From NCBI RefSeq assembly GCF_002355735.1, contig NZ_AP014879.1, forward strand, positions 1,178,001 through 1,242,000: a stretch of 64,000 nucleotides of DNA, given 5' to 3'. Both the position numbers and the translations under genes were made by a program. How positions within the stretch are numbered: the first letter of the stretch is position 1; each line of letters starts with the position of its first letter. Shown here one piece after another: positions 8,904 to 60,561 of this stretch. Under the pieces are notes generated by a model. The model ran no database searches. It saw nothing but the letters and a program-made list of their open reading frames with translations, and had not been told where the DNA came from. This stretch comes from Sulfuricaulis limicola (GTDB lineage: Bacteria; Pseudomonadota; Gammaproteobacteria; Acidiferrobacterales; Sulfurifustaceae).

Positions 8904-11459
<2,556 letters not shown>

Positions 11460-35318: not shown

Positions 35319-36329
35319 ATGGTTTCTGGATTTCGAAAAGTTCTTGTTACCGGCGCCGACGGCTTCATCGGTTCTCACCTCACGGAAGCGCTGATCAGCA
35401 AGGGTTACAATGTCCGTGCGTTTGTACTGTATAACTCATTTAACTCATGGGGCTGGCTGGACAATATCCCGAAGACGGTTCGCGACTCTCTCGATGTTTT
35501 CGCCGGCGATATCCGTGATCCACATGGCGTAAAGACCGCCATGCAGGGTTGCGACGCCATCCTGCATCTGGCCGCGCTGATCGCCATTCCTTATTCTTAT
35601 CATTCTCCGGATACCTATGTGGACACCAATATCAAGGGGACGCTGAACGTGCTGCAGGCAGCGCGGGAATTGGGGGTGCGTCGCGTGATTCACACCTCCA
35701 CCAGCGAGGTCTATGGTACAGCTCGCTTCGTGCCGATTACCGAGGAACATCCGCTGCAGGGGCAGTCTCCCTATTCGGCCTCGAAAATTGCTGCGGATCA
35801 GCTTGCCTACTCCTTCTATGCCTCCTTTGGTCTGCCGGTGATGATTGCCCGCCCCTTTAACACCTACGGCCCGCGACAATCGGCGAGGGCGGTGATCCCC
35901 ACAATCATCACACAGATAGCCAGTGGCCAACGCCGACTCCGCCTCGGCGCGGTTACCCCGACCCGTGACTTCAACTATGTGCAGGATACCGTTGCCGGCT
36001 TTATGGCGGCCCTGGAATCCGGGAACGGGATCGGCGAAGTGGTGAACTTCGGCAGCAATTTTGAAATTTCCATCGCTGAAACGGCAAGGTTAATCGCCGA
36101 AATCATGGGCACGGAAATAGAAATCGTGTCCGATGAGGCGCGCTTGCGACCGCAAAACTCGGAAGTGGAACGGCTCCTGGCCGACAACACCAAAGCCAAA
36201 AGGTTGTTTGACTGGTCCCCGGCTTATGGTGGCCGCCAGGGGTTCAGGCGCGGCTTGACCGAAACCGCCGCATGGTTCCAGGATCCTGCCAATCTCTCCG
36301 GCTACAAGGCTGATCGCTATAACGTCTGA
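35319..36329 (+). CDS. legB: Nucleotide-activated HexNAc 4,6-dehydratase, LegB type
   Basis: A 336-residue SDR with KVLVTGADGFIGSHLTEALISKGYNVRAFVLYNSFNSWGWLDN, HLAALIAIPYSYHSPDTYVDTNIKGTLNVLQAARELG, the catalytic TSTSEVYGTARFVPITEEHPLQGQSPYSASKIAADQLAYSFY and RPFNTYGPRQSARAVIPTIITQI. The SFNSWGWLD and IPYSYHSP blocks mark the LegB group, first dedicated enzyme of legionaminic acid synthesis. The ptmE-like gene in the locus suggests the GDP-linked substrate described in Campylobacter rather than UDP-GlcNAc. legC follows immediately. Confidence 0.92.
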   Translation: MVSGFRKVLVTGADGFIGSHLTEALISKGYNVRAFVLYNSFNSWGWLDNIPKTVRDSLDVFAGDIRDPHGVKTAMQGCDAILHLAALIAIPYSYHSPDTYVDTNIKGTLNVLQAARELGVRRVIHTSTSEVYGTARFVPITEEHPLQGQSPYSASKIAADQLAYSFYASFGLPVMIARPFNTYGPRQSARAVIPTIITQIASGQRRLRLGAVTPTRDFNYVQDTVAGFMAALESGNGIGEVVNFGSNFEISIAETARLIAEIMGTEIEIVSDEARLRPQNSEVERLLADNTKAKRLFDWSPAYGGRQGFRRGLTETAAWFQDPANLSGYKADRYNV

Positions 36330-37517
36330 ATGGACCCTGGTGTGAGTTCACTGGATCAGGTTTTGTTGCATGGATTGCAGAAGGTGTTGGGCGCGCCCGA
36401 CCGGCTGATCGCCCTGCATGAGCCGGAATTCGGCGGAAATGAAAGCGCGCTGCTCCAGGAATGCCTGAATTCCACTTTTGTGTCCTCGGTCGGCAAATAT
36501 GTCGACCAATTCGAGGCCATGTTGTCCGAGTTCACCGGCGCGAGGCACGCGGTGGCGGTGGTCAACGGCACGGCGGCGCTGCACATCGCGCTCAAGCTTG
36601 CCGGGGTGCAGGTCAACGACGAAGTGCTCGTGCCCGCGGTTTGTTTCGTGGCGACCGCGAATGCCGTTGTCCACTGTGGCGCCGTACCGCATTTCGTGGA
36701 CAGTCACTTCGATAATTTGGGCGTTGATTCATCCGCCCTGGCAGAATATTTACAGGCCATCGCAGAACCGGCGCCTCAGGGCCTGCGCAATCGCCGCACC
36801 GGCCGCCGCATTGCGGCGCTCGTGCCCATGCATACCTTTGGTCACCCGGTGGACATGGCGTCATTGCTCGAAGTGAGCGAGCGCTACGGCCTGCCCGTGG
36901 TGGAAGACGCTGCCGAGTCGCTCGGCAGCACTTATCAGGGGCAGCACACAGGCACCTTCGGAAAACTGGGAGTGCTCAGTTTTAACGGCAATAAAATCAT
37001 CACCACGGGCGGGGGCGGCGCCATTTTGACGAACGACGCGGAGCTGGCGCGACACGCCAAGCACCTTACCACCACCGCCAAGCGCCCCCATCGCTGGGAG
37101 TTTTTCCATGACGAAGTAGCCTGGAACTATCGTCTGCCGAACCTGAATGCCGCCCTCGGTTGTGCCCAGATGGAACGCTTGCAGGATCTTCTCGCGCGCA
37201 AGCGCGAGCTGGCGTCACGGTATCTGGCGGTGTTCGAGAATGGCGATGGTATCCGGTTCATCGCCGAACCCGCCGGTTGCCGCAGCAATTATTGGCTCAA
37301 TTCGGCGCGGCTGGAAAAGCCCGATATGAAAGCCCGAGACCGGTTACTGACCGTTGCCAACGATGCCGGCTATCAGTGTCGACCGATCTGGACGCTTCTG
37401 CACAAGTTGCCGATGTACATCGATTGTCCTCGTGCCGCGCTGCCGGTGGCGGAGCGGCTGGAGGCGAGCTTGATCAATCTGCCGAGCAGCGCAAAGCTGG
37501 CGAGCCTCCGGCAGTGA
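36330..37517 (+). CDS. legC: LegC-family aminotransferase (PLP-dependent, DegT/DnrJ/EryC1)
   Basis: A 395-residue sugar aminotransferase: HEPEFGGNESALLQECLNSTFVSSVGKYVDQFEAML, AVVNGTAALHIALKLAGV, VPAVCFVATANAVVHCGAVPHFVD, VVEDAAESLGSTYQG, and the PLP lysine in FNGNKIITTGGGGAILTND. It aminates the 4-keto group made by LegB. The ATG directly abuts the legB TGA. Its own TGA overlaps the legG start (GTGA). Confidence 0.93.
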   Translation: MDPGVSSLDQVLLHGLQKVLGAPDRLIALHEPEFGGNESALLQECLNSTFVSSVGKYVDQFEAMLSEFTGARHAVAVVNGTAALHIALKLAGVQVNDEVLVPAVCFVATANAVVHCGAVPHFVDSHFDNLGVDSSALAEYLQAIAEPAPQGLRNRRTGRRIAALVPMHTFGHPVDMASLLEVSERYGLPVVEDAAESLGSTYQGQHTGTFGKLGVLSFNGNKIITTGGGGAILTNDAELARHAKHLTTTAKRPHRWEFFHDEVAWNYRLPNLNAALGCAQMERLQDLLARKRELASRYLAVFENGDGIRFIAEPAGCRSNYWLNSARLEKPDMKARDRLLTVANDAGYQCRPIWTLLHKLPMYIDCPRAALPVAERLEASLINLPSSAKLASLRQ

Positions 37518-38683
37518 CCCACAAGCGAAAAATCTGCATCGTTACCGGCACCCGGGCGGAATACGGGCTGCTTTACTGGCTGATGAAGGAAGTGAGCGCG
37601 GATGCCGATATGCATCTGCAGGTCGTCGCCACCGGTACGCATCTCTCGCCCGAGTTTGGCCTGACCTATCAGCAAATCGAAGCCGACGGTTTCACCATCG
37701 ACGCCAAGGTCGAGATGCTGCTGTCGTCCGATTCTCCCATTGGCATAACCAAGTCCATCGGGCTGGGCGTCATCGGCTTTGCCGATACGCTGCAACGGCT
37801 CCGTCCCGATATCCTGGTGTTACTGGGAGACCGTTTCGAGATTCTGGCGGCAGCCCAGGCGGCGATGGTGGCGAGAGTACCGATCGCCCACATATCCGGT
37901 GGCGAGACAACGGAAGGTGCGTTTGACGAAGCCATCCGTCACGCGGTCACCAAGCTGGCACAATGGCATTTTGTTGCCGCCGAGCCTTATCGGAAACGCG
38001 TGGTGCAAATGGGGGAAGCGCCGGAGCGCGTGTTCAATTCGGGCGCACCCGGACTTGACCATCTTGCCAATCTGTCCTGGCTCGATCGCTCCAGGCTGGA
38101 AAAGGACATGGGAATCACCCTGGGGAAGCCGCTATTTCTGGTTACGTATCACCCTGTTACCCTGAGCGAGGCAAGTCCGGTAGTGGCCATGAATGAATTG
38201 CTGACCGCCCTTGATCAGTTTCCCGAGGCGACCGTGATCTTCACATACCCTAACGCGGACACGGGCGGCCGCATGCTGATCGATCGCATTAATGCCTGGG
38301 CCAGCCTGCATCCAGACAGAGCAAGGGCCTTTGTCTCGCTGGGGCACCAGCACTATCTGAGCCTGATGCGCGAAGCCGATGTAATAATCGGAAATTCCTC
38401 CAGTGGAATCAGTGAAGCGCCGGCGCTCAGGAAAGCAACGGTCAATCTGGGCAATCGGCAGAAGGGCAGACTGAAGGCCACTTCGGTGATCGATGCGATG
38501 GAGACCGCTGCCGATATTACTGATGCCATTAAAAAAGCCCTTTCCGGCGAATTTCGCCGCAACCTTGCCAATACGGTGTCGCTTTACGGCGTTGGAAATG
38601 CCAGTGCCAAAATCAAGGAGATTTTGAAAACGGTTCCACTGCGCGTTCTGAAAAGTTTCTTTGATATCAAACATGAATACTGA
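37514..38683 (+). CDS. legG: Hydrolysing NDP-HexNAc 2-epimerase (NeuC / LegG)
   Basis: A 389-residue NeuC-family enzyme beginning KRKICIVTGTRAEYGLLYWLMKEVSADADMHLQVVATGTHLSPEFGLTYQQIE, with VLGDRFEILAAAQAAMVARVPIAHISGGETTEGAFDEAIRHAVTKLA, GAPGLD, VTYHPVTL, FTYPNADTGGR and the C-terminal GNSSSGISEAPAL. It removes the nucleotide and inverts C2, giving the free 6-deoxy-mannosamine derivative that LegI condenses. GTG start at 37514 overlapping the legC stop. Confidence 0.95.
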   Translation: MTHKRKICIVTGTRAEYGLLYWLMKEVSADADMHLQVVATGTHLSPEFGLTYQQIEADGFTIDAKVEMLLSSDSPIGITKSIGLGVIGFADTLQRLRPDILVLLGDRFEILAAAQAAMVARVPIAHISGGETTEGAFDEAIRHAVTKLAQWHFVAAEPYRKRVVQMGEAPERVFNSGAPGLDHLANLSWLDRSRLEKDMGITLGKPLFLVTYHPVTLSEASPVVAMNELLTALDQFPEATVIFTYPNADTGGRMLIDRINAWASLHPDRARAFVSLGHQHYLSLMREADVIIGNSSSGISEAPALRKATVNLGNRQKGRLKATSVIDAMETAADITDAIKKALSGEFRRNLANTVSLYGVGNASAKIKEILKTVPLRVLKSFFDIKHEY

Positions 38684-39791
38684 TTCGACAACCTTCATCA
38701 TCGCCGAAGCCGGGGTGAATCATAATGGTTCCCTCGACCTGGGAAGGCGCTTGATAGATGTCGCTGTCGCCGCCGGTGCGGATGCCGTGAAGTTTCAAAC
38801 CTTCCGCGCCGAGCAAGTCGCCAGTCGTCACGCCCCCAAGGCCGAGTACCAGGCGCATGCCACCGGCAAGACTGAAACCCAGCTCGAAATGATCCGCAAG
38901 CTCGAGCTCAGCGAGGCAGACCATGCCGCCCTGATCGCCCATGCCGGTTCACGGGGAATTACCTTTCTCTCCACGCCCTTTGACTTGCCCAGCCTGCGAT
39001 TGCTCACGGAACGCTTCGGGATGAAGACCATCAAGATCCCTTCCGGGGAAATCACCAATGCACCTTTCCTGCTCGAGATTGCGCAGGTGGCAACGCGCGT
39101 GATTCTGTCCACCGGTATGAGCACCCTGGCGGAAGTGGAAGCGGCCCTGGAGATGCTGGCCTTCGGTTTCACCCGGCAATCCGGAATGGTTCCCGACCGC
39201 GATGCCATCGCCCGCAGTTTTGCCACCGCCGCCGGTCAGCAGGCATTGCGCGACCGGGTGACCTTGCTGCATTGCACCACGGAATATCCCGCCCCGTACG
39301 CCGAGGTGAACCTGCGAGCCATGGACACACTGGCGGCGGCTTTCGGCCTGCCGGTGGGTTATTCCGATCATACCCCGGGAATACACATCTCCGTGGCAGC
39401 CGTCGCCCGGGGGGCGCGAGTGATAGAAAAACACTTCACGCTGGACAGCAATCTTCCCGGACCTGACCACAAGGCATCACTGGAGCCGGATGAGCTGCGT
39501 CGGCTGGTCAGCGCTATCCGTGATGTGGAGCAGGCCCGGGGCGATGGTATCAAGCGCCCCACGGAATCTGAATGGAAGAATCGCCATGTCGCCCGTAAAA
39601 GCCTGGTGGCAAGCAGAGCGATCAAGAAAGGTGAAGTGTTTACCGCCGGGAATCTTGTCTGCAAGCGCCCGGGGAGCGGGATTTCGCCCATGCAATGGTA
39701 CGCCGTGCTGGGGCGAGTCGCTCCACGCGCGTTCGACGAGGACGAGTTGATTGAACTCGACGGCGGCAACAATGAGTCCAGGCCGGACTGA
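38673..39791 (+). CDS. legI: N-acetylneuraminate / legionaminate synthase family protein
   Basis: A 372-residue NeuB-family aldol-type synthase: FIIAEAGVNHNGSLDLGRRLIDVAVAAGADAVKFQTFRAEQVAS, STPFDLPSLRLLTERFGMKTIKIPSGEITNAPFLLEIA, STGMSTLAEVE, HCTTEYPAPYAEVNLRAM, GYSDHTPGI and EKHFTLD. The C-terminal SAF antifreeze-like domain reads RKSLVASRAIKKGEVFTAGNLVCKRPGSGISP. It condenses PEP with the LegG product to a nine-carbon nonulosonic acid. The ATG at 38673 overlaps the legG tail by 11 bp; an upstream TTG-type start at 38661 is less likely. Confidence 0.94.
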   Translation: MNTDSTTFIIAEAGVNHNGSLDLGRRLIDVAVAAGADAVKFQTFRAEQVASRHAPKAEYQAHATGKTETQLEMIRKLELSEADHAALIAHAGSRGITFLSTPFDLPSLRLLTERFGMKTIKIPSGEITNAPFLLEIAQVATRVILSTGMSTLAEVEAALEMLAFGFTRQSGMVPDRDAIARSFATAAGQQALRDRVTLLHCTTEYPAPYAEVNLRAMDTLAAAFGLPVGYSDHTPGIHISVAAVARGARVIEKHFTLDSNLPGPDHKASLEPDELRRLVSAIRDVEQARGDGIKRPTESEWKNRHVARKSLVASRAIKKGEVFTAGNLVCKRPGSGISPMQWYAVLGRVAPRAFDEDELIELDGGNNESRPD

Positions 39792-39797
39792 CGGGGC

Positions 39798-40550
39798 ATG
39801 ATTAAAATACCTGACACGGAAGATTCATCCGGCATGACCGGGCCGCCGCTTGTATTTGAGGCTCGGGCCCTCGATTTATCCCGGTTGCCTCGCATTGATT
39901 CACATTTGCATACCTCGTGGACGGACGGCAAGGCAACCGTGGCCGAAACCTATCAGCGCGCCGTTGAACTTGGTCTGGAGGTGATTCTCTACAGTGAGCA
40001 CAGCCGGAAGACGAGCACGGACTGGTTTTCCCGGTTTGCCGAAGAGGTGCGGTCTTTGCCGGCTGCGCCATGCCGGGCGTATGTAGGTACCGAGGTGAAG
40101 ATTGAGTCGCTTGATGGCGAGATCGATACCATCCCGGCAATCAGCGATCTGTGCGATTTCATCATGGCCAGCGTGCATCGCTTCCCCGATGGTCGCGGCG
40201 GTGCCATCCCTTTTGGCGAGGTCAATCCCGACGAGGCGGTTGACAGGGAATTCGCCCTGTCGTGGGCGGCGCTGGAAAATCCCAAAATCGATATTCTTGG
40301 TCATATGTTCGGGATGAGTTACCGGCGATACAAGGTCACGCCTCCCGATGAGAAAATCCGCGCCCTGATTGCGCGCGCGGCTGAATACGGGGTCGCGGTC
40401 GAGGTGAATTCCCATTATCACCCAAACCCATTCCAGTACATCGAATGGTGCAGAGAGTATGACGCCCGTATCACATTCGGTTCCAATGCCCACAGCCTGG
40501 AGAAGATCGGAGAAATCATGCGGCAATTGGGCGCGGAGCGCGCAAGATGA
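39798..40550 (+). CDS. PHP-domain metal-dependent hydrolase of unknown substrate
   Basis: A 250-residue PHP-fold protein. Metal-site residues are visible in order: H36 and H38 (RIDSHLHTSWTDG), H68 (YSEHSRKT), E99 (YVGTEVKIE), H127 (ASVHRFPDG), H169 (LGHMFG) and H232 (FGSNAHS). The usual Asp before the last His (SDAH) is Asn here. PHP proteins hydrolyse phosphate esters or related bonds; no substrate can be read from the sequence. It sits between legI and an ATP-grasp gene and overlaps the latter as ATGA, so it probably acts on a pathway intermediate or dephosphorylates the nonulosonate. Confidence 0.85.
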   Translation: MIKIPDTEDSSGMTGPPLVFEARALDLSRLPRIDSHLHTSWTDGKATVAETYQRAVELGLEVILYSEHSRKTSTDWFSRFAEEVRSLPAAPCRAYVGTEVKIESLDGEIDTIPAISDLCDFIMASVHRFPDGRGGAIPFGEVNPDEAVDREFALSWAALENPKIDILGHMFGMSYRRYKVTPPDEKIRALIARAAEYGVAVEVNSHYHPNPFQYIEWCREYDARITFGSNAHSLEKIGEIMRQLGAERAR

Positions 40551-41590
40551 GGCGGCACTGCCGTGTTCTGGTGACGGGCGCAGGAAGCGGTGTCGGCCAG
40601 GGCATCATAAAGGCTTTGCGTATTTCCAGGCTGCCTTTGACGATCATCAGTGGCGACATCGCGCCGATGAACGCGGCCTTGTACCGGGCTGATGAGGCGA
40701 TTCTCCTGCCCAAGGTTGAATCGCCGGGCGCGCTGGAAACCATCGTTGGCATCCTGTCGCTGCATCGCATCGATGTCGTCATGGTCGGGTCAGAGTTCGA
40801 TTTGAATTTCTTTTCAGAAAACAGGGATCTGCTCCTGACTCGTGCCGGCACGCTGGTGATTGCCGCATCCTTCGAGACCGTACGCATAGCGGAAGACAAA
40901 TGGCTTACCGCGGAATTTCTTCGTCAACATGGATTACCATATGCCGAGTCATGCCTCCCTGGCGGGCTTGACGAAGCCGTCAGGCTTGCCGAGAGCTGGG
41001 GTTATCCGGTGGTGCTCAAGACCCGGCGTGGCACGTCTTCCCGCCACGTGCATATTCTTCAGAATTCCCTGATGCTGGAAAAATACTGGGACGGGACCCC
41101 AGAACCCATGCTCCAGCGAGTCGTGGACGTTCCTGTTTCGGAGCTGGGCAACGAATATACCTGCAGTGTGTTCAAAACAGCCAATGGCTCCTTGCTTGGC
41201 CCGTTCACGGCACGGCGGACACTGCGTGGCGGGACATCGTGGCACGTGGAAGTTGATCGTTTTGAATTTCTCGACGATCTGCTGCTTGCCATCGGAAGGC
41301 TTCTTGATTTCTCCGGTTCCCTGAATATCCAGCTGATGGTTGGGCCGGCCGGCCCGGTTCCTTTCGAGCTGAATGCGCGCTTTTCAGGCACAACCGCGAT
41401 CCGGGCCCAATTCGGATTCAATGAACCGGCGATGTCGTTGAAGGCGTTTTTTTACGGCGAAGAGCTGGATCCGCCGCAAATACGCCGCGGCATGGCCATG
41501 AGGTATAACGAGGAAGTTTTCATCGATGACGTAAGCGCGGGAGATCTCACGCCGGGCACTCATAAGGGGTATGTCAACTCGTGGTTTTGA
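40547..41590 (+). CDS. ATP-grasp domain protein (putative carboxylate-amine/thiol ligase)
   Basis: The 347-residue protein starts with a Rossmann-like pre-ATP-grasp domain (CRVLVTGAGSGVGQGIIKALRISRLPLTIISGDI). It continues with the ATP-binding core (EDKWLTAEFLRQHGLPYAES, YPVVLKTRRGTSSRHVHIL, MLQRVVDVPVSELGNEYTCSVFKT) and the metal-binding PFELNARFSGTTAIRAQFGFNEP. Such ligases activate a carboxylate as acyl phosphate and couple it to an amine. In this locus the obvious carboxylates are nonulosonic or uronic acids, suggesting an amide or amino-acid decoration; that is inference. It overlaps the PHP gene by 4 bp and the next epimerase by 10 bp. Confidence 0.85.
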   Translation: MRRHCRVLVTGAGSGVGQGIIKALRISRLPLTIISGDIAPMNAALYRADEAILLPKVESPGALETIVGILSLHRIDVVMVGSEFDLNFFSENRDLLLTRAGTLVIAASFETVRIAEDKWLTAEFLRQHGLPYAESCLPGGLDEAVRLAESWGYPVVLKTRRGTSSRHVHILQNSLMLEKYWDGTPEPMLQRVVDVPVSELGNEYTCSVFKTANGSLLGPFTARRTLRGGTSWHVEVDRFEFLDDLLLAIGRLLDFSGSLNIQLMVGPAGPVPFELNARFSGTTAIRAQFGFNEPAMSLKAFFYGEELDPPQIRRGMAMRYNEEVFIDDVSAGDLTPGTHKGYVNSWF

Positions 41591-42504
41591 GCGCCGTTGC
41601 CCTGACCGGTGCGACTGGAATGCTGGGCCGCCATGTCGTATCCGCGCTTGAATCGCAGGGCATCCGGGTGTTGTCGTGCGCGCGCGTCGCGCGACAGGGG
41701 AAAGATTCTGCCGACCGCAGGATCTGGGATCTTGGCCAGTGGCGGTCCATGGATGAAATGGACGCCCTGTTTGAAGGGGCGCAGGCCATTGTTCATGCGG
41801 GAGCAATGGTCCCCGGCAATTCCAAGCTGCCGGGCGAAGCAGAGCTATTCGACGTCAACGTCAGGGCATGCCTGAATCTGGGAGAATGGGCGCTGGCTCG
41901 TTCCGTGCCGGTTGTTCATGTATCGGGCGCCATTGTCTACGCCGAACAAGACCGCGAAAATATCGATGAGTCGGCGCCGACAGGCTATACGGGCTTCGGC
42001 GGATTTTACGGCCTGACAAAAGTCCTTGCCGAGGATATTTTTCAGCGCTTGCAGCAACGAGGACTGCAAGCGGCCGTTCTGCGACCATCCTCGATTTATG
42101 GAGCCGGGCTTTCTCCGACGAAGATGTTGAGAAAATTTCTCGCGACGGCTGCAGCCGGCGGCACTATTGAACTGGTACCGCCCATTGAGGATAGAATCGA
42201 CCTGATTCATGCCGCTGATGTGGCCGCCGCCGTTGCAGCCGTGCTGAAGACAGGCGCGTGGACTACCTTCAATCTTGCTTCCGGACATCCCTCGACAGTC
42301 CGGGAGATCGCCGATGCCTGCCTGGCAGTAACCGGGAAAGGAGACATACAAGTCCGGGGCGACGTGAAGAATGCGAGAACACCCGGTGTTCGTTTTTCGC
42401 TGAATTGTGAACGTGCGAATCGGGCGCTGGGCTGGTCACCCGGGGTCAGCCTTCACCAGGGCATGGCAGCGTTGTTTGAAAACAGAGTGCTGACGCCGGG
42501 ATAG
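41581..42504 (+). CDS. NAD-dependent epimerase/dehydratase family protein
   Basis: The 307-residue extended SDR begins LSAVALTGATGMLGRHVVSALESQGIRVLSCARVAR, with VHAGAMVPGNSKLPGEAELFDVNVRACLNLGEWAL, catalytic HVSGAIVYAEQDRENIDESAPTGYTGFGGFYGLTKVLAEDIF, and RPSSIYGAGL. The Ser-Tyr-Lys triad is present (S in VSG, Y in FYGLTK). No substrate-specific signature is recognised. GTG start at 41581, inside the ATP-grasp gene. The PHP, ATP-grasp and this gene form a tightly overlapped trio. Confidence 0.85.
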   Translation: MVLSAVALTGATGMLGRHVVSALESQGIRVLSCARVARQGKDSADRRIWDLGQWRSMDEMDALFEGAQAIVHAGAMVPGNSKLPGEAELFDVNVRACLNLGEWALARSVPVVHVSGAIVYAEQDRENIDESAPTGYTGFGGFYGLTKVLAEDIFQRLQQRGLQAAVLRPSSIYGAGLSPTKMLRKFLATAAAGGTIELVPPIEDRIDLIHAADVAAAVAAVLKTGAWTTFNLASGHPSTVREIADACLAVTGKGDIQVRGDVKNARTPGVRFSLNCERANRALGWSPGVSLHQGMAALFENRVLTPG

Positions 42505-42628: not shown

Positions 42629-43684
42629 TTGATTCCCCACTGGAAAGATATTGTTGTTTCTCCGGACGCACCCCTGGAAGAGGCTATTTCGCGGATCGAT
42701 GCCTCCGGCATTCAAGTCGCGCTGGTGCTTTCTGCCGATGGACGCCTGGAAGGAATGCTTACCGATGGCGACATCCGGCGCGCCATACTGCGCGGTCAGA
42801 ACCTCCGGACACCGACAAAAGAGGTAATGAATCCCAAACCCACGGCGGTGCTGGCCCTGACACCCCGGGAAGAAATGCTGGCCTTGATGCGCCGTCAGGT
42901 TTTTCACCACCTTCCCTTGATCGACGAGAGCGGCAGGGTTGTGGGTTTGGCGACCCTGGATGAATTCATCGGGGCCGTGGAGCGCCCCAACTGGGTGGTG
43001 CTGATGGCCGGTGGCCTGGGGACACGACTGCATCCGCTGACTGAAGATTGTCCCAAACCATTACTGTCTGTCGGGGGCAAGCCGATTCTTGAAACCATTC
43101 TCCAGAGTTTTGCCGAGCAGGGTTTCAAACATATCTTCCTTTCCGTGAATTACAAGGCAGAGATGATCCGGAATTATTTTGGCACAGGGGAAAAGTGGGG
43201 GGTGCAAGTCCATTATCTTCACGAAGGCAGCCGTCTGGGCACGGCAGGCGCGCTGTCACTTTTGCCTCAGGCGCCCACGACGCCGCTGATCGTGATGAAC
43301 GGTGATTTGCTGACGCGCGCGAACTTCGACGGGCTGTTGAAATTCCACGCCGAGCATGGCGCGGCCGCGACCATGGCGGTGCGTGAATACGATTTTCAGG
43401 TGCCGTATGGCGTGGTCAATCTCGATAAACACCGGATCACGAGTATCGAGGAGAAGCCGGTGCACCGTTTCTTCGTCAATGCCGGCATCTACGTGCTGTC
43501 ACCCGATGTGCTCGGCCGCCTTCCGGCAAAAAGTTTCTTTGATATGCCCACACTGTTTGAGCAGTTGATCGGCGCCAGGGAAACGACCGTCGCGTATCCG
43601 CTGCGGGAATACTGGCTGGACGTCGGCAGACTGGAGGAATACGAGCGGGCCCAGAGAGAGTGGAGCGGGGGAGACAATGATTGA
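42629..43684 (+). CDS. ptmE: CBS-domain nucleotidyltransferase, PtmE-like
   Basis: The 351-residue protein has two N-terminal CBS motifs (about 1-115: PLEEAISRIDASGIQVALVLSADGRLEGMLTDGDIRRAIL; FHHLPLIDESGRVVGLATLDEF). A sugar-phosphate nucleotidyltransferase follows (VVLMAGGLGTRLHPLTEDCPKPLLSVGGKPILETIL, NGDLLTRANF, IEEKPVHRFFVNAGIYVL, YPLREYWLDVGRLEEYERA). This architecture is that of Campylobacter PtmE, the glucosamine-1-phosphate guanylyltransferase of the GDP-linked legionaminic route. The TTG start at 42629 is supported by AAGGA ending 8 nt before it. The 124-bp gap upstream is the largest in this part of the operon. Confidence 0.87.
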   Translation: MIPHWKDIVVSPDAPLEEAISRIDASGIQVALVLSADGRLEGMLTDGDIRRAILRGQNLRTPTKEVMNPKPTAVLALTPREEMLALMRRQVFHHLPLIDESGRVVGLATLDEFIGAVERPNWVVLMAGGLGTRLHPLTEDCPKPLLSVGGKPILETILQSFAEQGFKHIFLSVNYKAEMIRNYFGTGEKWGVQVHYLHEGSRLGTAGALSLLPQAPTTPLIVMNGDLLTRANFDGLLKFHAEHGAAATMAVREYDFQVPYGVVNLDKHRITSIEEKPVHRFFVNAGIYVLSPDVLGRLPAKSFFDMPTLFEQLIGARETTVAYPLREYWLDVGRLEEYERAQREWSGGDND

Positions 43685-44393
43685 CGGCAGGCGCGTGCTC
43701 GGATTGATCCCGGCGCGAGGCGGAAGCAAGGGGCTGCCTGGAAAAAATATCCGTCCGTTATGCGGGAAACCTCTCATCGCGTGGACGATCGAGAAGGCGT
43801 TGAAATCCAGATACCTGGACAAGGTCCTGGTCAGCACGGACAGCCCTGAAATAGCCGCCATCGCGACAGGCAGCGGGGCATCCGCGCCTTTTCTGAGGCC
43901 CGCTGAATTGGCGACGGACACCGCGCCGACGCTCGACGTGGTCAAGCATGCACTTTCATACTGTCGCGAGCAGGAAAATCGTGAGTATGACTACGTGGTA
44001 TTGCTTGAACCCACCTCGCCGTTGCGCGAAGACGACGACATAGACAACATGCTTTCCCGGCTTCATGCAAAGGCTGATGAGTTCGATGCGATCGTGAGCG
44101 TCGGTGAGGTCAATGAGCATCCGTCGATCATGAAGCGGCTGGTCGACGGCCGGATTCAGCCTTTTTATCCTGAAATCAGCCGGACCACGCGCCGCCAGGA
44201 CAATGCCCCGGCCTACTTTCCCTATGGCGTGGCTTACATAGTCAAAACGAACATACTTTTGGCGGAAGGAACTTTCTATCCCGAACGTTGTACCTACTAT
44301 TGCCTTCGTCGCTACCAGAATTACGAAATTGACGGGATTTACGATTTCCTTTGCGTGGAGAATATAATGAGATACGAATGGAGTCTGCGATGA
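43677..44393 (+). CDS. legF: CMP-nonulosonate cytidylyltransferase (LegF / NeuA family)
   Basis: A 238-residue acylneuraminate cytidylyltransferase: RVLGLIPARGGSKGLPGKNIRPLCGKPLIAWTIEKAL, STDSPEIAAIATGSGASAPFLRPAELATDTAPTLDVVKHAL, VVLLEPTSPLREDDDIDNML. It activates the LegI product with CTP. It overlaps ptmE by 8 bp and ends inside the start of the next gene (ATGA). With legB, C, G and I this completes the recognisable nonulosonate core. Confidence 0.94.
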   Translation: MIDGRRVLGLIPARGGSKGLPGKNIRPLCGKPLIAWTIEKALKSRYLDKVLVSTDSPEIAAIATGSGASAPFLRPAELATDTAPTLDVVKHALSYCREQENREYDYVVLLEPTSPLREDDDIDNMLSRLHAKADEFDAIVSVGEVNEHPSIMKRLVDGRIQPFYPEISRTTRRQDNAPAYFPYGVAYIVKTNILLAEGTFYPERCTYYCLRRYQNYEIDGIYDFLCVENIMRYEWSLR

Positions 44394-45391
44394 AGTTTCT
44401 GATCGTCGGTCTGGGATCCATGGGAAAGCGCCGGGTGCGCAACCTTCGGGCTTTGGGCCGGACGGAGATCGCCGGCTTCGACCAGCGCGCCGATCGCCGG
44501 AATGAGGTGATTGCCAAGTATGGCATCCCGGTTTACGACAGTTTCGAGGAAGCTGTCGCCGGTCATAAACCGGACGCGCTGATTATCTCTACCGGGCCAA
44601 AACACCACATGGATTATGCGTGGGATGCGTGTGATCGCGGCCTTCCCTGCTTTATCGAAGCCTCGGTGGTTGAAGCAGATCGCATCCTGGGCCTGCATAA
44701 CCGCATCCAGAACACCGGTATCATCATGGCGCCGTCTTGCACGATGCGCTATTCCGATGGGCCGCGTCATATCAAGAAACTTATCGCCGCCGGAGTCATT
44801 GGCAGACCGCTCAATCTCAATTATCTGACAGGTCAGTATCTGCCGGATTGGCACCCGTGGGAAAACATCGGAGATTTCTACGTGTCTGACCGCGAAACCG
44901 GCGGCTGCCGGGAGATCGTCCCATTTGAGCTCACTTGGATAAACGACGTATTCGGCGACCCCGAGCCTTTGGCCTGCGTGAAAAGCAAGCTCACTGACAT
45001 GAACGCCGATATCGACGACGTTTATCACTGCCTGTTGCGCTATCCGGGCGGCCTGCTGGCCAATTTGACTGTCGAGGTGATATCGCGCCCCAAGGCCACG
45101 CGCGAATTGCGCGTGCTCGGCAGCATGGGGGAACTGGTGTTCAGCGCGGACGAGAATTGCGTGCGGTATATTCGCGTCGGGGATGATCAATGGACACGTT
45201 TTGATCTTTCCGGCGGCACCGTGGAGACGGGCTATATCAATCCGGAAGAGCCTTATATTGCCGAGATGGCAGATTTCGTGTCGGCCCTTGAAAAGCGCGA
45301 TCCGTCAATTTTCCCCAACACCCTGAAAGATGATTGGCGGGTATTACAGAACCTGTATCGTCTGGAACAGTTGAGCGAGCACATTGCATGA
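44390..45391 (+). CDS. Gfo/Idh/MocA-family oxidoreductase
   Basis: The 333-residue protein starts MKFLIVGLGSMGKRRVRNLRALGRTEIAGFDQRADRR, an NAD(P)-binding Rossmann fold, and includes DALIISTGPKHHMDYAWDACDRGLPCFIEASVVE. In this family the usual EKP lysine motif reads EAS here (FIEASV), so the catalytic lysine of the classical motif appears replaced. A typical C-terminal alpha/beta domain follows (GVIGRPLNLNYLTGQYLPDWHPWE, GGCREIVPFELTWINDVFG). It stands between legF and an aminotransferase, next to genes resembling those for amino-sugar precursor formation in Campylobacter ptm loci. The exact reaction is not assigned. Confidence 0.87.
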   Translation: MKFLIVGLGSMGKRRVRNLRALGRTEIAGFDQRADRRNEVIAKYGIPVYDSFEEAVAGHKPDALIISTGPKHHMDYAWDACDRGLPCFIEASVVEADRILGLHNRIQNTGIIMAPSCTMRYSDGPRHIKKLIAAGVIGRPLNLNYLTGQYLPDWHPWENIGDFYVSDRETGGCREIVPFELTWINDVFGDPEPLACVKSKLTDMNADIDDVYHCLLRYPGGLLANLTVEVISRPKATRELRVLGSMGELVFSADENCVRYIRVGDDQWTRFDLSGGTVETGYINPEEPYIAEMADFVSALEKRDPSIFPNTLKDDWRVLQNLYRLEQLSEHIA

Positions 45392-46743
45392 ATAACCAGG
45401 AACGTCTGTTACGAGTCATACCCGGTGGCGCACACACATACTCTCGCGGGTTCGACCAGTTTCCCTCCAACGCGCCCCAAATCCTCGAGCGGGGTGAGGG
45501 CGCCTATGTCTGGGATCCGGAAGGAAACAAGTATCTTGACTATGGCATGGCTTTGCGGGCGGTTACCCTCGGTTATGCCTATCCTTCGGTGGTCGAAGCC
45601 GCCTACAGGGAGATCCTCAAGGGGAATAACCTGACCCGGGCATCCACGACCGAGCTGCGGGCCGCGGAACTCATCGTCGATCTGATTCCTTCGGCCGACA
45701 TGGTCAAGTTTGCCAAAAACGGTTCGAATGTCACCACGGGCGCCGCCAAGGTGGCGCGCGCCTACACCGGCCGGCGTTATATCTGCATCCCGCGACAGCA
45801 TCCGTTTTTTTCCTTTGACGACTGGTTCATCGGCACAACGGCCCTCACGCGAGGAATACCTTCAGACCACGCCGCATCAACCCTGGTTTTTGATTACGGA
45901 AACATCGCTTCTCTGGAAAAGCTTTTTAACGAGCATCCGGGTCAGATCGCCGGTGTCATGCTCGAACCCGCGACTACGCTGCTACCGTGCCCGGCGGCGT
46001 GTCAGCACAAGCTGTCGTATGAAAACCCCTGCCATCAATGTCGGCATAACGGATCGAACTTTTTGCATGCCGTTCAGGGTTTGTGCCGCGCCAATGGCGC
46101 CTTGTTCATACTGGACGAGATGATTACCGGCTTCCGCTGGCACCTCCAGGGCGCTCAAGTCTATTTTGGCGTTGAGCCGGATCTCAGCACATTCGGCAAG
46201 GGCATGGCGAACGGCTTTTCCGTGGCGGCACTGGTCGGTCGCCGCGAAATCATGGAAGTCGGATCCATCAGCCAGCCGGGCGCGGAGCGCACCTTTTTGC
46301 TGTCCACCACCCACGGCGGCGAGATGTCCGGACTTGGAGCCTTTATTGAAACAGTGAAGGTGTACCGTGAACGGGATGTGTGCCGGCACCTTTGGCATTA
46401 CGGTGAAAAACTGCGCGAAGGCCTGTTAAGCGCGGCGAAAGACTGCGGTTTGCAGAATCATTTCAGTCTGGACGGCGCGCCCGTTCTGATGAATTACGTG
46501 ACACGCGATGCCAATGGCGCGGTTTCCATGGAGTTTCGCACATTGTTCAGCCAGGAAATGGTGCGTCGCGGGGTGCTGATGCCGTGGATCACTCTCAGCC
46601 TGGCTCATGGCGACCATGAATTGGATCTCACTCTCCAGGCGGCGCGAGGTGCGTTCTCGGTCTATGCCAAGGCATTGACTGACGGTATCGGGAAATATCT
46701 TGAGGGTCCCGCCGTGAAGCCGGTATTCCGTAGATTCAATTGA
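45388..46743 (+). CDS. Class III PLP aminotransferase (glutamate-1-semialdehyde aminomutase-like) with cysteine cluster
   Basis: The 451-residue protein has the family pattern RVIPGGAHTYSRG, VWDPEGNKYLDYGMALRAVTLGYAYPSV, KNGSNVTTGAAKVARAYTGR, ILDEMITGFRW, the PLP lysine K271 in LSTFGKGMANGFSVAALVG and TTHGGEMSGLGAF. Unusually, the segment at 201-218 carries four cysteines (C201, C205, C215, C218, in PCPAACQ and PCHQCRH), which looks like an added metal-binding or redox loop. In this locus it probably transaminates a sugar rather than making aminolevulinate. Start overlaps the previous stop as ATGA. Confidence 0.88.
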   Translation: MNNQERLLRVIPGGAHTYSRGFDQFPSNAPQILERGEGAYVWDPEGNKYLDYGMALRAVTLGYAYPSVVEAAYREILKGNNLTRASTTELRAAELIVDLIPSADMVKFAKNGSNVTTGAAKVARAYTGRRYICIPRQHPFFSFDDWFIGTTALTRGIPSDHAASTLVFDYGNIASLEKLFNEHPGQIAGVMLEPATTLLPCPAACQHKLSYENPCHQCRHNGSNFLHAVQGLCRANGALFILDEMITGFRWHLQGAQVYFGVEPDLSTFGKGMANGFSVAALVGRREIMEVGSISQPGAERTFLLSTTHGGEMSGLGAFIETVKVYRERDVCRHLWHYGEKLREGLLSAAKDCGLQNHFSLDGAPVLMNYVTRDANGAVSMEFRTLFSQEMVRRGVLMPWITLSLAHGDHELDLTLQAARGAFSVYAKALTDGIGKYLEGPAVKPVFRRFN

Positions 46744-46955
46744 TGCGCATAGCCCTGATCTCCCTGGAGCAACAATGGCTGGACAAGGCCGGGAATTTCA
46801 GCCGTTGTCGAGAAATGGCCCACGGAGCCGCGCTGGAATTGGACATCTGCGACATTGATGCCGCAGAAACCGCACGCTATCGGGGGAGCTTTCCCACCGT
46901 CCGCGACAAACGCTATGCCCTGTATCGACAGCTTTTTGGTACTCACGCATGTTGA
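46743..46955 (+). pseudogene. Internally deleted nitrilase / omega-amidase relic (70 aa)
   Basis: The reading frame encodes MRIALISLEQQWLDKAGNFSRCREMA, which looks like the first strand and helix of a carbon-nitrogen hydrolase (usual continuation FPEM with the catalytic Glu). It then passes directly into LELDICDIDAAETARYRGSFPTVRDKRYALYRQL, which looks like the extreme C-terminus of the same family. The whole catalytic centre (Glu, Lys, Cys) is missing, about 190 residues, yet the frame is intact. The ATG overlaps the aminotransferase stop and the end overlaps ptmA, so the operon layout has been preserved. It is probably a deletion pseudogene; a retained mini-protein cannot be excluded. Confidence 0.6.
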
Positions 46956-47716
46956 ACGGAAAGGTGGTGGTGATTACTGGAGGGGCGGGCCTGTTGGGAC
47001 GTGTATTTTCTGCGGCGGTTGCCGACGCGGGTGGAGTTGCCGTCGTTGCCGATGTCAATTTGACCGCGGCCGAGCGTGTGGCGCAGGAGATCAACAACGC
47101 GCGCCCCGGCGGCGCAGCACCCGCGCAGCTGGATATCAGCGATCCCGAATCGGTAAATTCACTGATCGAGCTGCTCCACGGACGTCATGGCCGGATAGAT
47201 GCGGTGGTGAATAACGCCTATCCCCGCAATAAAAACTGGGGTCGCAAGCTGGAAGATGTGGCTTACGGGGATTTTTGCGAAAACATGGACATGCACCTGG
47301 GTGGATACTTTCTCGTGATGCAGCGTTTCTCGCTGTATTTCAAATCACAAGGTTTCGGGAACATTGTGAATCTGGCATCCATCTACGGCACCATGGTTCC
47401 GCGGTTTGAAATATACGCCGGAACCAGGATGACGGTGGCCGTGGAATACGCCGCAATCAAGTCCGCGATCATCCAGTTGACGCGGTATTTCGCGCAGTAT
47501 TTCAAGCATGACGGCGTGCGTTTCAACTGCATATCCCCGGGCGGGATACTGGACAATCAGCCGGAAAGTTTCCTGAAGCACTATAACGGTCATTGCGGCA
47601 CGAAAGGCATGCTGGATTCAAAGGACATCTCCGGGACCTTGATATATCTGTTATCCGATGCCTCCCGTTACGTGACGGGTCAAAACATTATTATCGATGA
47701 TGGCTTTGCGCTCTAG
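46949..47716 (+). CDS. ptmA: Short-chain dehydrogenase, PtmA-like
   Basis: A 255-residue classical SDR: NGKVVVITGGAGLLGRVFSAAVADAGGVAVVADVN, VVNNAYPRNKNWGRKLEDV, IVNLASIYGTMVPRFEIYAGTRMTVAVEYAAIKSAIIQLTRYFAQYF (Ser/Tyr/Lys triad), FNCISPGGILDNQPESFLKHYNGHCGTKGML and VTGQNIIIDDGFAL. The NNAYPRN and IYG blocks resemble PtmA of flagellin-glycosylation loci, which participates in supply of the amino-sugar precursor. It overlaps the nitrilase relic by 7 bp. Confidence 0.87.
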   Translation: MLNGKVVVITGGAGLLGRVFSAAVADAGGVAVVADVNLTAAERVAQEINNARPGGAAPAQLDISDPESVNSLIELLHGRHGRIDAVVNNAYPRNKNWGRKLEDVAYGDFCENMDMHLGGYFLVMQRFSLYFKSQGFGNIVNLASIYGTMVPRFEIYAGTRMTVAVEYAAIKSAIIQLTRYFAQYFKHDGVRFNCISPGGILDNQPESFLKHYNGHCGTKGMLDSKDISGTLIYLLSDASRYVTGQNIIIDDGFAL

Positions 47717-47779: not shown

Positions 47780-48901
47780 GTGAAAGACAAATCTAAACTG
47801 GTTTATTGCGCCAGGTGTTTGATGCCCAATACGCGTCCGCGTATTCAATATGACGCAAACGGTGTCTGCAACGCGTGTTTGTGGGCCGAAGAAAAAAAGA
47901 AGATTGACTGGAAGCACCGCTGGGAAGAGCTCGAGGCGGTCTGCGAGAAACACCGTGCGCGCAATAAAAATAATTTCGATGTGATCGTTCCATACAGCGG
48001 CGGCAAGAATGGCGCGTATATCGCCTACACGCTGAAGGAAAAACTGGGCATGCACCCATTGTGCGTCACGATACGTCCGCCCATGGAGGATCCAATTGGA
48101 ATACAGAACATCAAGAATTTTCTCGAACGGGGCTATGATCATCTGATGATCACGCCTAATCGTCTCGTCGAAAGGGCCATTGACAGGGAAAACTTCGTAA
48201 ATAAGGGGATTCCGATGCATGCCTTCATGATTGCCGTGCAGACGGCGATCATGCGAACCGCCGTGAACTACGATATTCCCTTTGTCATGTTTGCGGAAGA
48301 AGGAGAGACGGAATACGGGGGATCGACGAAATTGAAGAATCGGCATACGTATGATGTCGAAGACGGTATAAATCTGTATTTGAGCGGGGTCGATCCGGCT
48401 AAATACCTGGATAGCTTTTCAGAAAAGGAATTATACTGGTTTCAGTATCCCTCGCCGGAACGAATCAGCGCGCTGAAGCCGGAGATTTCCCATTGGTCCT
48501 ATTTTGAGGATTTTGTAAATTACAAACATTATCTGGTGGCAAAGGAAAAACTCGGACTCCAGGAGCGCTTGGAGAGGAATATCGGCGCCATAGAGAATTT
48601 CTCGGCGACAGACACGGACATCATCCATTTGTATTTTTACCTGATGTATATCAAGTTCGGGTTTGGCAGAACCACAAGCGAGATCGGCAACGAGATACGG
48701 CGTGGCGCCATGACCCGGAAGCAGGGCTTGAATATAGTGAAGAAATTCGATGGTGAGTATCCGGAAAAACACATTCCTTCCTATTTGAAATATTATGACA
48801 TGAGCCGCGAAGAATTCGATTCCGTGATAGACAAATGGGCGAACAAGGAACTTTTCGAGAAGGTGGATGGACGCTGGGTTCCCGTCTTTGAGCCCTGCTA
48901 G
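47780..48901 (+). CDS. ptmG: N-acetyl sugar amidotransferase (WbpG / PseA / PtmG family)
   Basis: The 373-residue enzyme has an N-terminal zinc motif CARCLMPNTRPRIQYDANGVCNACLW and a PP-loop ATPase site (VIVPYSGGKNGAYIAYTLKEKLGM). These enzymes activate an N-acetyl oxygen with ATP and replace it with ammonia to give an acetamidino group; ammonia comes from the HisH2/HisF2 pair, encoded just downstream. The PP-loop reads SGGKNG, not the usual SGGKDS; this may be a subfamily variant. GTG start at 47780 with GGGACGA upstream. Confidence 0.9.
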   Translation: MKDKSKLVYCARCLMPNTRPRIQYDANGVCNACLWAEEKKKIDWKHRWEELEAVCEKHRARNKNNFDVIVPYSGGKNGAYIAYTLKEKLGMHPLCVTIRPPMEDPIGIQNIKNFLERGYDHLMITPNRLVERAIDRENFVNKGIPMHAFMIAVQTAIMRTAVNYDIPFVMFAEEGETEYGGSTKLKNRHTYDVEDGINLYLSGVDPAKYLDSFSEKELYWFQYPSPERISALKPEISHWSYFEDFVNYKHYLVAKEKLGLQERLERNIGAIENFSATDTDIIHLYFYLMYIKFGFGRTTSEIGNEIRRGAMTRKQGLNIVKKFDGEYPEKHIPSYLKYYDMSREEFDSVIDKWANKELFEKVDGRWVPVFEPC

Positions 48902-48916
48902 GGAGAAGCCGTTTAA

Positions 48917-50419
48917 TTGCTGATGCAGAACTGCCGCTTCATCGTTGTAAATCATCCCAGGCTGGGGTTTCAGAACGCAGAGAATGCTGTGCGTGACTTC
49001 GTCGCCCGCCGTCTCAGCAGTGCCGGCGCGCCCGAAGTTATCTTTGTGCCAGATCGGGAGTCTGCGGACAAAACAGCGAACTCGATGCTCAGGGACCCGG
49101 CTAAAAACGGTTACCTGGTCATTAGCGACATCATGAATCCGGTCACGGATCTCGGGCTCGTGCGGGCAATGATGGACAGCTTGCAGCGCAACGAGGCCGC
49201 CGTATGCCTTTGTGATGGAGCCATTCCGGGCACCCAGGTGGATATGGTGATCGCCGCCGATCGCCTGGATCATCTGCCTGATGACGCTGAATCTGCCAAT
49301 CCGGTGTTGATTCGCAAGCGCTGGTTCACACAGGACAAGCACAACAATCAATTTAACCTGTACAAGTACAAACGGCTCAAGATGTTTCTCTGTCTCGTCG
49401 AACGGCTTGACGGCATGCACGAGATGGATATTGAGACGTTCATTTCGGCGCTGGCCCGGGACGACATTTTTCCTTTGCTTGCCGCGTTTGGCGAGGACGT
49501 CCGTCTGGTCTGGCACGAGTCATGCCCACACTGCAATGGCGCACTGACGCCCTTGCCGCTGAGGATGTCACAGCCTTTTTGCGGCTATCTGCCCGTGGCC
49601 AGGCCACTTTACCATGAATGTGAACGTTGTGGCCTCGTGACGGCATCCCCGGTCGTGCATGAGGACGATGTCGCCACGATATACGATGTCTTCGATAAGC
49701 AGGACTTCGTTGTCTCGCTGAATAATCCGTATCATCATGGCGCCACGCGCTGCGATTTCAGCCTTTTCGAACGTCATCTGCCACGCATGGCAAGGACGCT
49801 AGATATTGGCGGCGGCATGGGACGGTTCAGCCAGTTCCTTAAAGAGGCCTACCCTGACTGGATCGTGACGCATTCCGATCATGAAATAAAGCAAAACCTG
49901 CAGCTTCAGGATCAAGGCATTCAGACCAGGGCCCTGAACGTCCTCGCAGAACCGATTGGTCAAGAGCGCTACGATCTGATTACCGCCTGGGAAGTGATCG
50001 AGCACATCCCTTACCATCGGATAGCGTCCGTACTGGATAACATCCATCGCGCCCTGGCACCGGGGGGGTTCTTCGTGTTCAGCACGCCGGATTTCGATTC
50101 CCCGTTATGCCGCAGCTTTGATTTCTTCGGTGTTTGCCCGCCCTTTCACTACCTGGTTTTTGGCGAGCGGTGGCTGCGTCGTTACTTCGAAGGATCGTCC
50201 CAATGGGAGTACCTGGAACCCCGGTCCTGTTCCGATTTCCTCGATGATTCCCTGATGTGGTACGACTACGGTTCGAAAACCTGTCCATCCTTCCAGATGC
50301 GGGCCACATCAGGCGTTCTCCGCGCGGTCTTCGAGACCGATGATGGCGGGGACCTGCGCAGAACCTTGATGCGAAGAGGCATTGGCACGGAAATCATTAT
50401 TACGCTGAGAAAGCAGTGA
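48917..50419 (+). CDS. Two-domain protein: nucleotidyltransferase-like N-terminus, zinc ribbon and SAM methyltransferase
   Basis: A protein of about 500 residues. Residues 1-190 look like an alpha/beta nucleotidyltransferase-type domain (FIVVNHPRLGFQNAENAVRDFVARRL, YLVISDIMNPVTDLGLVRAMMDSL), but without a clear catalytic signature. A zinc-ribbon-like CPHCNG...CERCG pair follows (about 204-238). A class I methyltransferase is next (RTLDIGGGMGRFSQFLKEAYPDW, VIEHIPYHRIASVLDNIHRALAPGGFFVFSTPDFDS). Placed between the amidotransferase gene and hisH/hisF, it is a good candidate to N-methylate the acetamidino group, as proposed for the ptm locus of Campylobacter. TTG 48917 or ATG 48923 may be the start. 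Confidence 0.82.
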   Translation: MLMQNCRFIVVNHPRLGFQNAENAVRDFVARRLSSAGAPEVIFVPDRESADKTANSMLRDPAKNGYLVISDIMNPVTDLGLVRAMMDSLQRNEAAVCLCDGAIPGTQVDMVIAADRLDHLPDDAESANPVLIRKRWFTQDKHNNQFNLYKYKRLKMFLCLVERLDGMHEMDIETFISALARDDIFPLLAAFGEDVRLVWHESCPHCNGALTPLPLRMSQPFCGYLPVARPLYHECERCGLVTASPVVHEDDVATIYDVFDKQDFVVSLNNPYHHGATRCDFSLFERHLPRMARTLDIGGGMGRFSQFLKEAYPDWIVTHSDHEIKQNLQLQDQGIQTRALNVLAEPIGQERYDLITAWEVIEHIPYHRIASVLDNIHRALAPGGFFVFSTPDFDSPLCRSFDFFGVCPPFHYLVFGERWLRRYFEGSSQWEYLEPRSCSDFLDDSLMWYDYGSKTCPSFQMRATSGVLRAVFETDDGGDLRRTLMRRGIGTEIIITLRKQ

Positions 50420-50447
50420 GCATGCGCCCCCGGCCCTTGTGCCAGCC

Positions 50448-51062
50448 ATGATTACAATCATCAACTACGGTATGGGCAATCTGCGCTCCCTGCAGAACGC
50501 ATTTACCTATCTGGGGATTGAATCCCGCATAGTCAGCGATCCCGAAGTCATCGCTGCCAGTGATCGGCTCGTTTTGCCCGGTGTCGGATCTTATGCTCAG
50601 GCAATGATGAACATCGAGAAAAACGGCATGCGACAGGCCATGGAAATGGCGGTGCTCCAGCGGGGAGTTCCGTTCCTGGGCGTGTGCCTGGGCATGCAGC
50701 TCTTGTCCGGGCAAGGCGAAGAGGGAGGTATTACCAAAGGACTCGGCTGGATTCCAGGCCGGGTTGTTCGCATGACTCCGGGTGAAGGCCTGAAGATTCC
50801 GCATATCGGTTTCAACACGGCACGTTTCCGCTTGAATCACGGCGGACTCTTCGACGGCCTTGGCGACGGATGCGACTTCTACTTCGTGCATTCGTTTCAC
50901 TTCATATCCAGAGACCCCGAGAACGTAATTGGTGTATGTGACTATGGCGGTGAAGTTGTCTGCGCCATACGCCGTGACAACGTTGTCGGCGTGCAGTTCC
51001 ACCCGGAAAAGAGCCAAAGTAACGGTTTACAACTGCTGCGGAATTTCATGAATCACTTCTAG
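50448..51062 (+). CDS. hisH: HisH-type glutamine amidotransferase subunit (HisH2)
   Basis: A 204-residue class I glutaminase: ITIINYGMGNLRSLQNAFTYLGI, LPGVGSYAQAM, the catalytic cysteine in PFLGVCLGMQLLSGQGEEGG and the His-Glu pair in GVQFHPEKSQSNG. It releases ammonia from glutamine. No other histidine biosynthetic genes are present here, and the partner gene plus the sugar amidotransferase gene are neighbours, so it feeds acetamidino-sugar formation as HisH2 does with WbpG in P. aeruginosa. The ATG at 50448 matches the family start. Confidence 0.92.
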   Translation: MITIINYGMGNLRSLQNAFTYLGIESRIVSDPEVIAASDRLVLPGVGSYAQAMMNIEKNGMRQAMEMAVLQRGVPFLGVCLGMQLLSGQGEEGGITKGLGWIPGRVVRMTPGEGLKIPHIGFNTARFRLNHGGLFDGLGDGCDFYFVHSFHFISRDPENVIGVCDYGGEVVCAIRRDNVVGVQFHPEKSQSNGLQLLRNFMNHF

Positions 51063-51082
51063 TTTTCCGCGCTGAATCGCGT

Positions 51083-51871: not shown

Positions 51872-51940
51872 AGGCATGGAGCGCCACCCCCTCAACTTCC
51901 GGAAAGTCCATGTTAAATGCCATGAGCGGGGGAATAAGCA

Positions 51941-52501: not shown

Positions 52502-52514
52502 TCCGGCGTCGGGG

Positions 52515-55086: not shown

Positions 55087-55110
55087 GTCGGGAAGAAAAC
55101 TGAAAGTCAG

Positions 55111-56148: not shown

Positions 56149-56171
56149 AAATATTTTTTTTATCGGCAAAT

Positions 56172-56612: not shown

Positions 56613-56614
56613 TT

Positions 56615-59675: not shown

Positions 59676-59712
59676 GTTTTGATCTGTTATCCCGTCCGAG
59701 ATTCCAGCCAGG

Positions 59713-60558: not shown

Positions 60559-60561
60559 AAA

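Follow-up and report, generated by a model that had tools for sequence, protein, structure and literature searches.

The window, a 64,000-nucleotide stretch of the Sulfuricaulis limicola genome (contig NZ_AP014879.1, positions 1,178,001 to 1,242,000), carries a legionaminic-type nonulosonate pathway in which three overlapping genes, encoding a PHP hydrolase, an ATP-grasp ligase and an extended SDR, lie between the NeuB/LegI synthase and PtmE (see table). The open reading frames span 39798-42504, agreeing to the base with the first-pass annotation, with overlaps of 4 nt between the PHP and ATP-grasp genes and 10 nt between the ATP-grasp and SDR genes. The same annotation had set the trio outside the textbook legionaminate and pseudaminate routes, and this was borne out: none of the three proteins passes the cut-offs of the LegBCHGIF models, and the LegB, C, G, I and F-like roles are filled by other genes of the window. 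In the annotated parts of the window, the sole acetyltransferase seen is a generic GNAT, which matched neither the LegH nor the PseH equivalog, and a search of the organism's own genome found no NeuD/PglD-type protein above cut-off. Acetamidino-type genes (WbuX/PseA-like, HisH and WbuZ/HisF) lie farther along the window, as do a class-III aminotransferase and a PtmA-like SDR of the same, GDP-linked pathway. All three trio proteins are 47-69% identical to counterparts in unrelated genomes that keep the gene order, and their active-site residues are conserved across phyla, so the trio is more than a chance grouping.

Table. Features of the window and of related loci; positions refer to the window unless a locus is named.
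Feature	Position	Strand	Length and matches
LegB 4,6-dehydratase	35319-36329	+	TIGR04180 528.7 bits, cut-off 475
LegC aminotransferase, source of the 4-amine	36330-37517	+	TIGR04181 534 bits, cut-off 420
NeuC/LegG 2-epimerase (hydrolysing)	37514-38683	+	TIGR03568 474 bits, cut-off 236
NeuB/LegI nonulosonate synthase	38673-39791	+	TIGR03569 496 bits, cut-off 400
PHP hydrolase	39798-40550	+	250 aa; PF02811 36.5 bits, threshold 26.4
PHP residues N230-H232	40485-40493		
ATP-grasp ligase	40547-41590	+	347 aa; NF009402/PRK12767 319 bits, curated cut-off 218; Pfam PylC-like_N
Extended SDR (NAD-dependent epimerase/dehydratase family)	41581-42504	+	307 aa, GTG start; PF01370 108.9 bits
PtmE-like CBS + nucleotidyltransferase	42629-43684	+	PF00483 141.6 bits; PF00571
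LegF/PseF-type CMP transferase	43677-44393	+	TIGR03584 156.6 bits, under cut-off 205.7
Class-III aminotransferase, glutamate-1-semialdehyde aminomutase-like	45385-46743		NF004856 629 bits
PtmA-like SDR	46949-47716		
WbuX/PseA-like	47780		
HisH	50439		
WbuZ/HisF	51083		
GNAT acetyltransferase, generic	51941-52501	+	PF13302 82.5 bits
PHP-ATP-grasp fusions	L094, L098, L099, L107, L120, L129, ORFs ending near 11,010		555-618 aa
NeuC-PHP, SDR-DegT and HisF-HisH fusions	L118: 7908-9761, 11010-13187, 3717-5429		
2-hydroxyacid dehydrogenase-like motif	L094: 15907-16893; L131: 1260-2231		
Formyltransferase-like gene	L188: 5859-6641; L189: 9574-10356		

The structure model of the PHP enzyme (pLDDT 93.3) matches the PolX PHP domain, the histidinol-phosphate phosphatases HisK/HisJ and YcdX (VIA Z ~19-21). 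In the alignment the HxH motif, H68, E99, H127, H169 and H232 are kept and the final DxH reads NxH; this replacement of the last metal-ligand Asp by Asn (SNAH) marks the window's clade, where the other ligands are kept. Rhizobial copies, together with several from Chloroflexi and others, carry Gln at the first His of HxH, and cyanobacterial, archaeal and Omnitrophota copies retain both His of HxH and the Asp of DxH. In two PHP clades a conserved metal-ligand residue, a different one in each, has thus given way to an amide-bearing residue (D to N and H to Q). We predict that the protein is a metal-dependent phosphoesterase of the small-molecule phosphatase branch, which would release or deprotect an acyl donor.

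The active site of the ATP-grasp protein is intact: K118, K158, E203, Q262, E274, N276 and R278 are invariant in 44 aligned sequences, and we take them to be the ATP-binding lysines, the CPS-like Mg2+ ligands (Q, E, N) and the catalytic Arg. Its structure model (pLDDT 93.5) matches 2pn1 best; biotin carboxylase and PurK come next, and PylC ranks 21st; acyl-chain specificity is not readable from the model. The enzyme is predicted to be a carboxylate-amine ligase of the PRK12767/PylC-like type, acting as an N-acyl ligase on a 4-amino sugar nucleotide. Amide-bond chemistry for the trio is well supported, and the first-pass proposal that the ATP-grasp makes an amide bond is most likely right. The SDR, in which both the GxxGxxG and YxxxK motifs (Y143, K147) are present, has counterparts in 37 of the 53 genus-level loci described below, but is missing from the operons L072, L074, L076, L077 and L079 and is thus not essential to the PHP/ATP-grasp couple.

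A scan of a genome collection with the ATP-grasp alignment yielded 80 loci from many bacterial phyla and archaea, which we collapsed to 53, about one per genus. A phosphoesterase adjoins the ATP-grasp or is fused to it in 43 of these, as a PHP enzyme at position −1, a calcineurin-type enzyme at −1 or +2, or a PHP fusion; the detection HMMs were built from adjacent copies, which biases the near-versus-far contrast upwards and leaves the pairing itself unbiased. The PHP enzyme most likely prepares the substrate, one of the roles suggested for it at first pass. In six loci from candidate-phyla bacteria and Kiritimatiellales, each of which has NeuB, PHP and ATP-grasp form a single polypeptide. On the ATP-grasp tree we count no fewer than six changes of the partner state (PHP, MPE, fusion or HAD) and no fewer than four of the nonulosonate context. 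A DegT-type C4 sugar aminotransferase is found within eight genes in 39/53 loci, and NeuB in 17/53, indicating that the substrate common to the loci is the 4-amino-2,4,6-trideoxy sugar shared by the bacillosamine and legionaminate routes, rather than a carboxylate. The first-pass annotation proposed a survey of co-occurrence with legI/legF and would be refuted by a trio seen mainly outside nonulosonate loci. On that count it fails for the broad family, which is mostly found without NeuB; the window's own clade of seven rows (support 99) occurs in nonulosonate loci only.

The smallest operons are especially compact. L072 reads PglC-PHP-ATPgrasp-DegT-dehydratase, and L124 and L135 read PglC-ATPgrasp-SDR-MPE-DegT-dehydratase; these three and L115 hold the full PglC/4-aminotransferase/4,6-dehydratase set with ATP-grasp and phosphoesterase and no spare gene for PglD. 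No hexapeptide or PglD_N domain appears among the 25 commonest Pfam matches of 91 unlabelled neighbours, a set in which the Pfam scan found four GNATs, and no acetyltransferase is among the 25 commonest matches of 69 unlabelled neighbours in Leg-type loci. Methyltransferases are frequent in Leg-type trio loci, and the acyl group or the sugar may be methylated too. Two Leg-type trio loci also contain a 2-hydroxyacid dehydrogenase-like motif, a possible hint at a hydroxy-acid donor.

A remote branch of the family lies in a Neisseria-type genus, reached via an index genome with 1,437 Neisseria DNA uptake sequences. A relative of the ATP-grasp is present in 25 of 46 genomes of this genus at 99-131 bits, where generic carbamoyl-phosphate synthases of the same genomes score 58-67 bits. 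In the seven loci inspected, the ATP-grasp directly follows a phosphoglycosyltransferase or forms a single 527-aa protein with it; a HAD_2 phosphatase lies directly downstream in five (no HAD-like gene adjoins the ATP-grasp in L187 and L190), and a DegT aminotransferase and a 4,6-dehydratase come next. In genomes of the genus that lack the ATP-grasp, the same slot holds a PglD_N + hexapeptide acetyltransferase, fused or separate (7/7 checked). This matches the published exchange between PglB, responsible for the diacetyl sugar, and PglB2, an ATP-grasp/phosphoglycosyltransferase responsible for the glyceramido-acetamido trideoxyhexose, in which the inserted fragment is pglB2-ORF8 (PMC11130364, PMC6959607); judged by position, the HAD gene is likely ORF8. 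Several Neisseria-type loci also have a formyltransferase-like gene, placed between those for the HAD phosphatase and the aminotransferase.

PglB2 and ORF8 resemble the window genes in that a related ATP-grasp (PylC-like_N and ATPgrasp_Ter, linked through HMM and Pfam matches) is coupled to a phosphatase, in most inspected genomes directly downstream, and occupies the amine-acyltransferase slot that comes after a 4-aminotransferase. They differ in their remote sequence, a HAD rather than a PHP partner, a bacillosamine-type sugar rather than a nonulosonate and the lack of an SDR. The Neisseria ligase is moreover fused or adjacent to a phosphoglycosyltransferase, an adjacency that recurs elsewhere in the wider family, whereas the window trio stands behind NeuB. 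Because the relationship is remote, with very long tree branches parting the two ligases, the acid used in Neisseria cannot be transferred to the window with certainty.

We consider it probable that the trio serves the legionaminic pathway as an alternative module for N-acylation, in which the PHP enzyme frees or deprotects a phospho-hydroxy acid, the ATP-grasp acylates the C4 amine and the SDR is optional. From the gene order, the fusions, the intact ligase site, the varied phosphatase pairing, the co-occurrence with 4-aminotransferases and the Neisseria-type acetyltransferase slot, all read directly from the sequences, we infer the reaction, the acid, the position on the sugar, which of phosphatase and ligase acts first and what the SDR does as follows. 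LegB and LegC would produce an NDP-2-acetamido-4-amino-2,4,6-trideoxyhexose, on which the ATP-grasp would stand in for, or work beside, a LegH/PglD acetyltransferase, converting a small hydroxy acid to an acyl phosphate and joining it to the C4 amine, which would become N7 of a legionaminic-type acid once NeuC and NeuB have acted. The PHP enzyme would generate the acid by dephosphorylating a metabolite, with 3-phosphoglycerate to glycerate the likeliest and simplest case, or might instead strip the phosphate after ligation of a phospho-acid; the SDR would be an optional tailoring oxidoreductase or epimerase acting on the sugar or the acyl group. That the target is an amine and not a carboxylate is well supported at the family level and likely for the window trio, and glycerate is a plausible acid. 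PglD and LegH act at the same proposed position, the C4 amine of the NDP-4-amino-trideoxyhexose, but are acetyl-CoA-dependent transferases, whereas the trio would provide an ATP-dependent ligase and a phosphatase. Several points speak against an N-acylation module: besides the remoteness of the Neisseria-type ligase and the two inspected loci with no HAD-like gene beside it, the GNAT of the window could carry out N4 acetylation, freeing the ATP-grasp for another target, and the window-clade PHP enzyme, whose phosphatase activity is a prediction, has Asn at the last Asp metal ligand.

The same amine could receive a different acid, with the ATP-grasp joining an amino acid, for example one freed by the PHP enzyme from a phospho-amino acid, to give an N-aminoacyl legionaminic acid. 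Amino acids are common ATP-grasp substrates, the ligase has a PylC-like N domain with PylC among its structural matches, and N-methylglutamyl legionaminic acid occurs on Clostridium botulinum flagellin. We nevertheless regard this as rather unlikely, as the three unrelated phosphatase folds found as partners fit a common phosphorylated hydroxy acid, and glyceramide is the product of PglB2, the sole relative with a chemical assignment. Amidation of the nonulosonic acid carboxylate, the version put forward in the first-pass annotation, would account for a trio directly behind NeuB and for a nearest clade confined to nonulosonate loci; yet 36/53 related loci have no NeuB, 39/53 carry the C4 sugar aminotransferase, and the gene exchanged for the ATP-grasp in the Neisseria-type slot is an amine acetyltransferase. 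Decoration of the carboxylate is accordingly unsupported; we rejected it as the main reading and consider it very improbable.

The PHP enzyme might also serve the sugar pathway itself, for example by dephosphorylating a nonulosonate phosphate or the NeuC product, and merely travel with the ATP-grasp. In Woesearchaeota L118, a nonulosonate locus rich in fusions, PHP is indeed fused to NeuC beside a separate ATP-grasp. Against this, PHP and ATP-grasp are paired in loci with neither NeuC nor NeuB (L072, L074-L079 and Sinorhizobium), and in the six fusions noted above the partner of PHP is the ligase, which leaves this reading very improbable. A nonulosonate-phosphate phosphatase is weakened by the PHP pairs in loci without NeuB, and a pure hitch-hiker by the calcineurin-type replacements and the fusions.

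The preferred N-acylation reading can be set beside two further systems. On Sinorhizobium pSymB (L050/L051) the same three families stand in the same order, with PHP and ATP-grasp 35-38% identical to those of the window and SMb21228 annotated as a sugar epimerase; there, unlike in the window, NeuB is lacking and the trio lies behind cysD-nodQ-cysQ, near sulfotransferases. The surrounding nodP2-SMb21248 cluster is an uncharacterised one for a polysaccharide that may be sulfated, and is partly Clr-controlled (PMC5498481). Tannerella forsythia makes a nonulosonic acid with N-glyceroyl at C7 and acetamidino at C5 (PMC6120980, PMC6388019), and the gene for the glyceroyl group was described as ‘elusive’ (PMC6120980). 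This product, Pse5Am7Gra, with its N7-glyceroyl and N5-acetimidoyl groups, is of the type predicted for the window, which also carries acetamidino-type genes; its stereochemistry is pseudaminic, whereas the window pathway is legionaminic.

The first-pass description of the locus as ‘undescribed chemistry’ is too strong, since glyceramido ligation by the ATP-grasp of PglB2 has been described (PMC11130364). In the literature searched, we found neither an ATP-grasp glyceramido-type ligation inside a nonulosonate route nor, among work on legionaminic or nonulosonic acids with ATP-grasp or PHP, a description of the trio. N-acylation of the PglB2 type is known; what is new here is its predicted use with a PHP phosphatase inside a nonulosonate pathway. 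More tentatively, and with somewhat less than even confidence, we suggest that phosphatase-coupled ATP-grasp N-acyl ligases are a widespread substitute for PglD/LegH, as yet without a name, in both bacteria and archaea, repeatedly assembled with PHP, calcineurin-type or HAD partners, sometimes as a bifunctional PHP-ligase, and that in nonulosonate loci they give legionaminic acids with N7-glyceroyl or O-methylated glyceroyl groups. The chemistry that nonulosonic acids expose at the surface includes their N-acyl groups, which vary between strains; the module offers candidate genes for the glyceroyl source, predicts which genomes bear such groups and ties the allelic exchange of the Neisseria pilin glycan to a gene set found across many bacterial phyla and archaea.

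The trio appears to have arrived from elsewhere. No counterpart of the ATP-grasp was found in any sampled genome of the same genus or family, where the best matches are generic ATP-grasps, so we rejected placement of the trio in the genus core genome. The nearest proteins, 66-69% identical, belong to Sulfuritalea, to a second member of the Rhodocyclaceae and to an Acidobacteria MAG, each accompanied by PHP and SDR in unchanged order. Absence from the sampled relatives, while Rhodocyclaceae proteins are 68-69% identical to those of the window, points to acquisition of the trio, and the locus was probably acquired; GC content declines along it, from ~61% in the first 26 kb to 48-56% at window positions 48000-62000.
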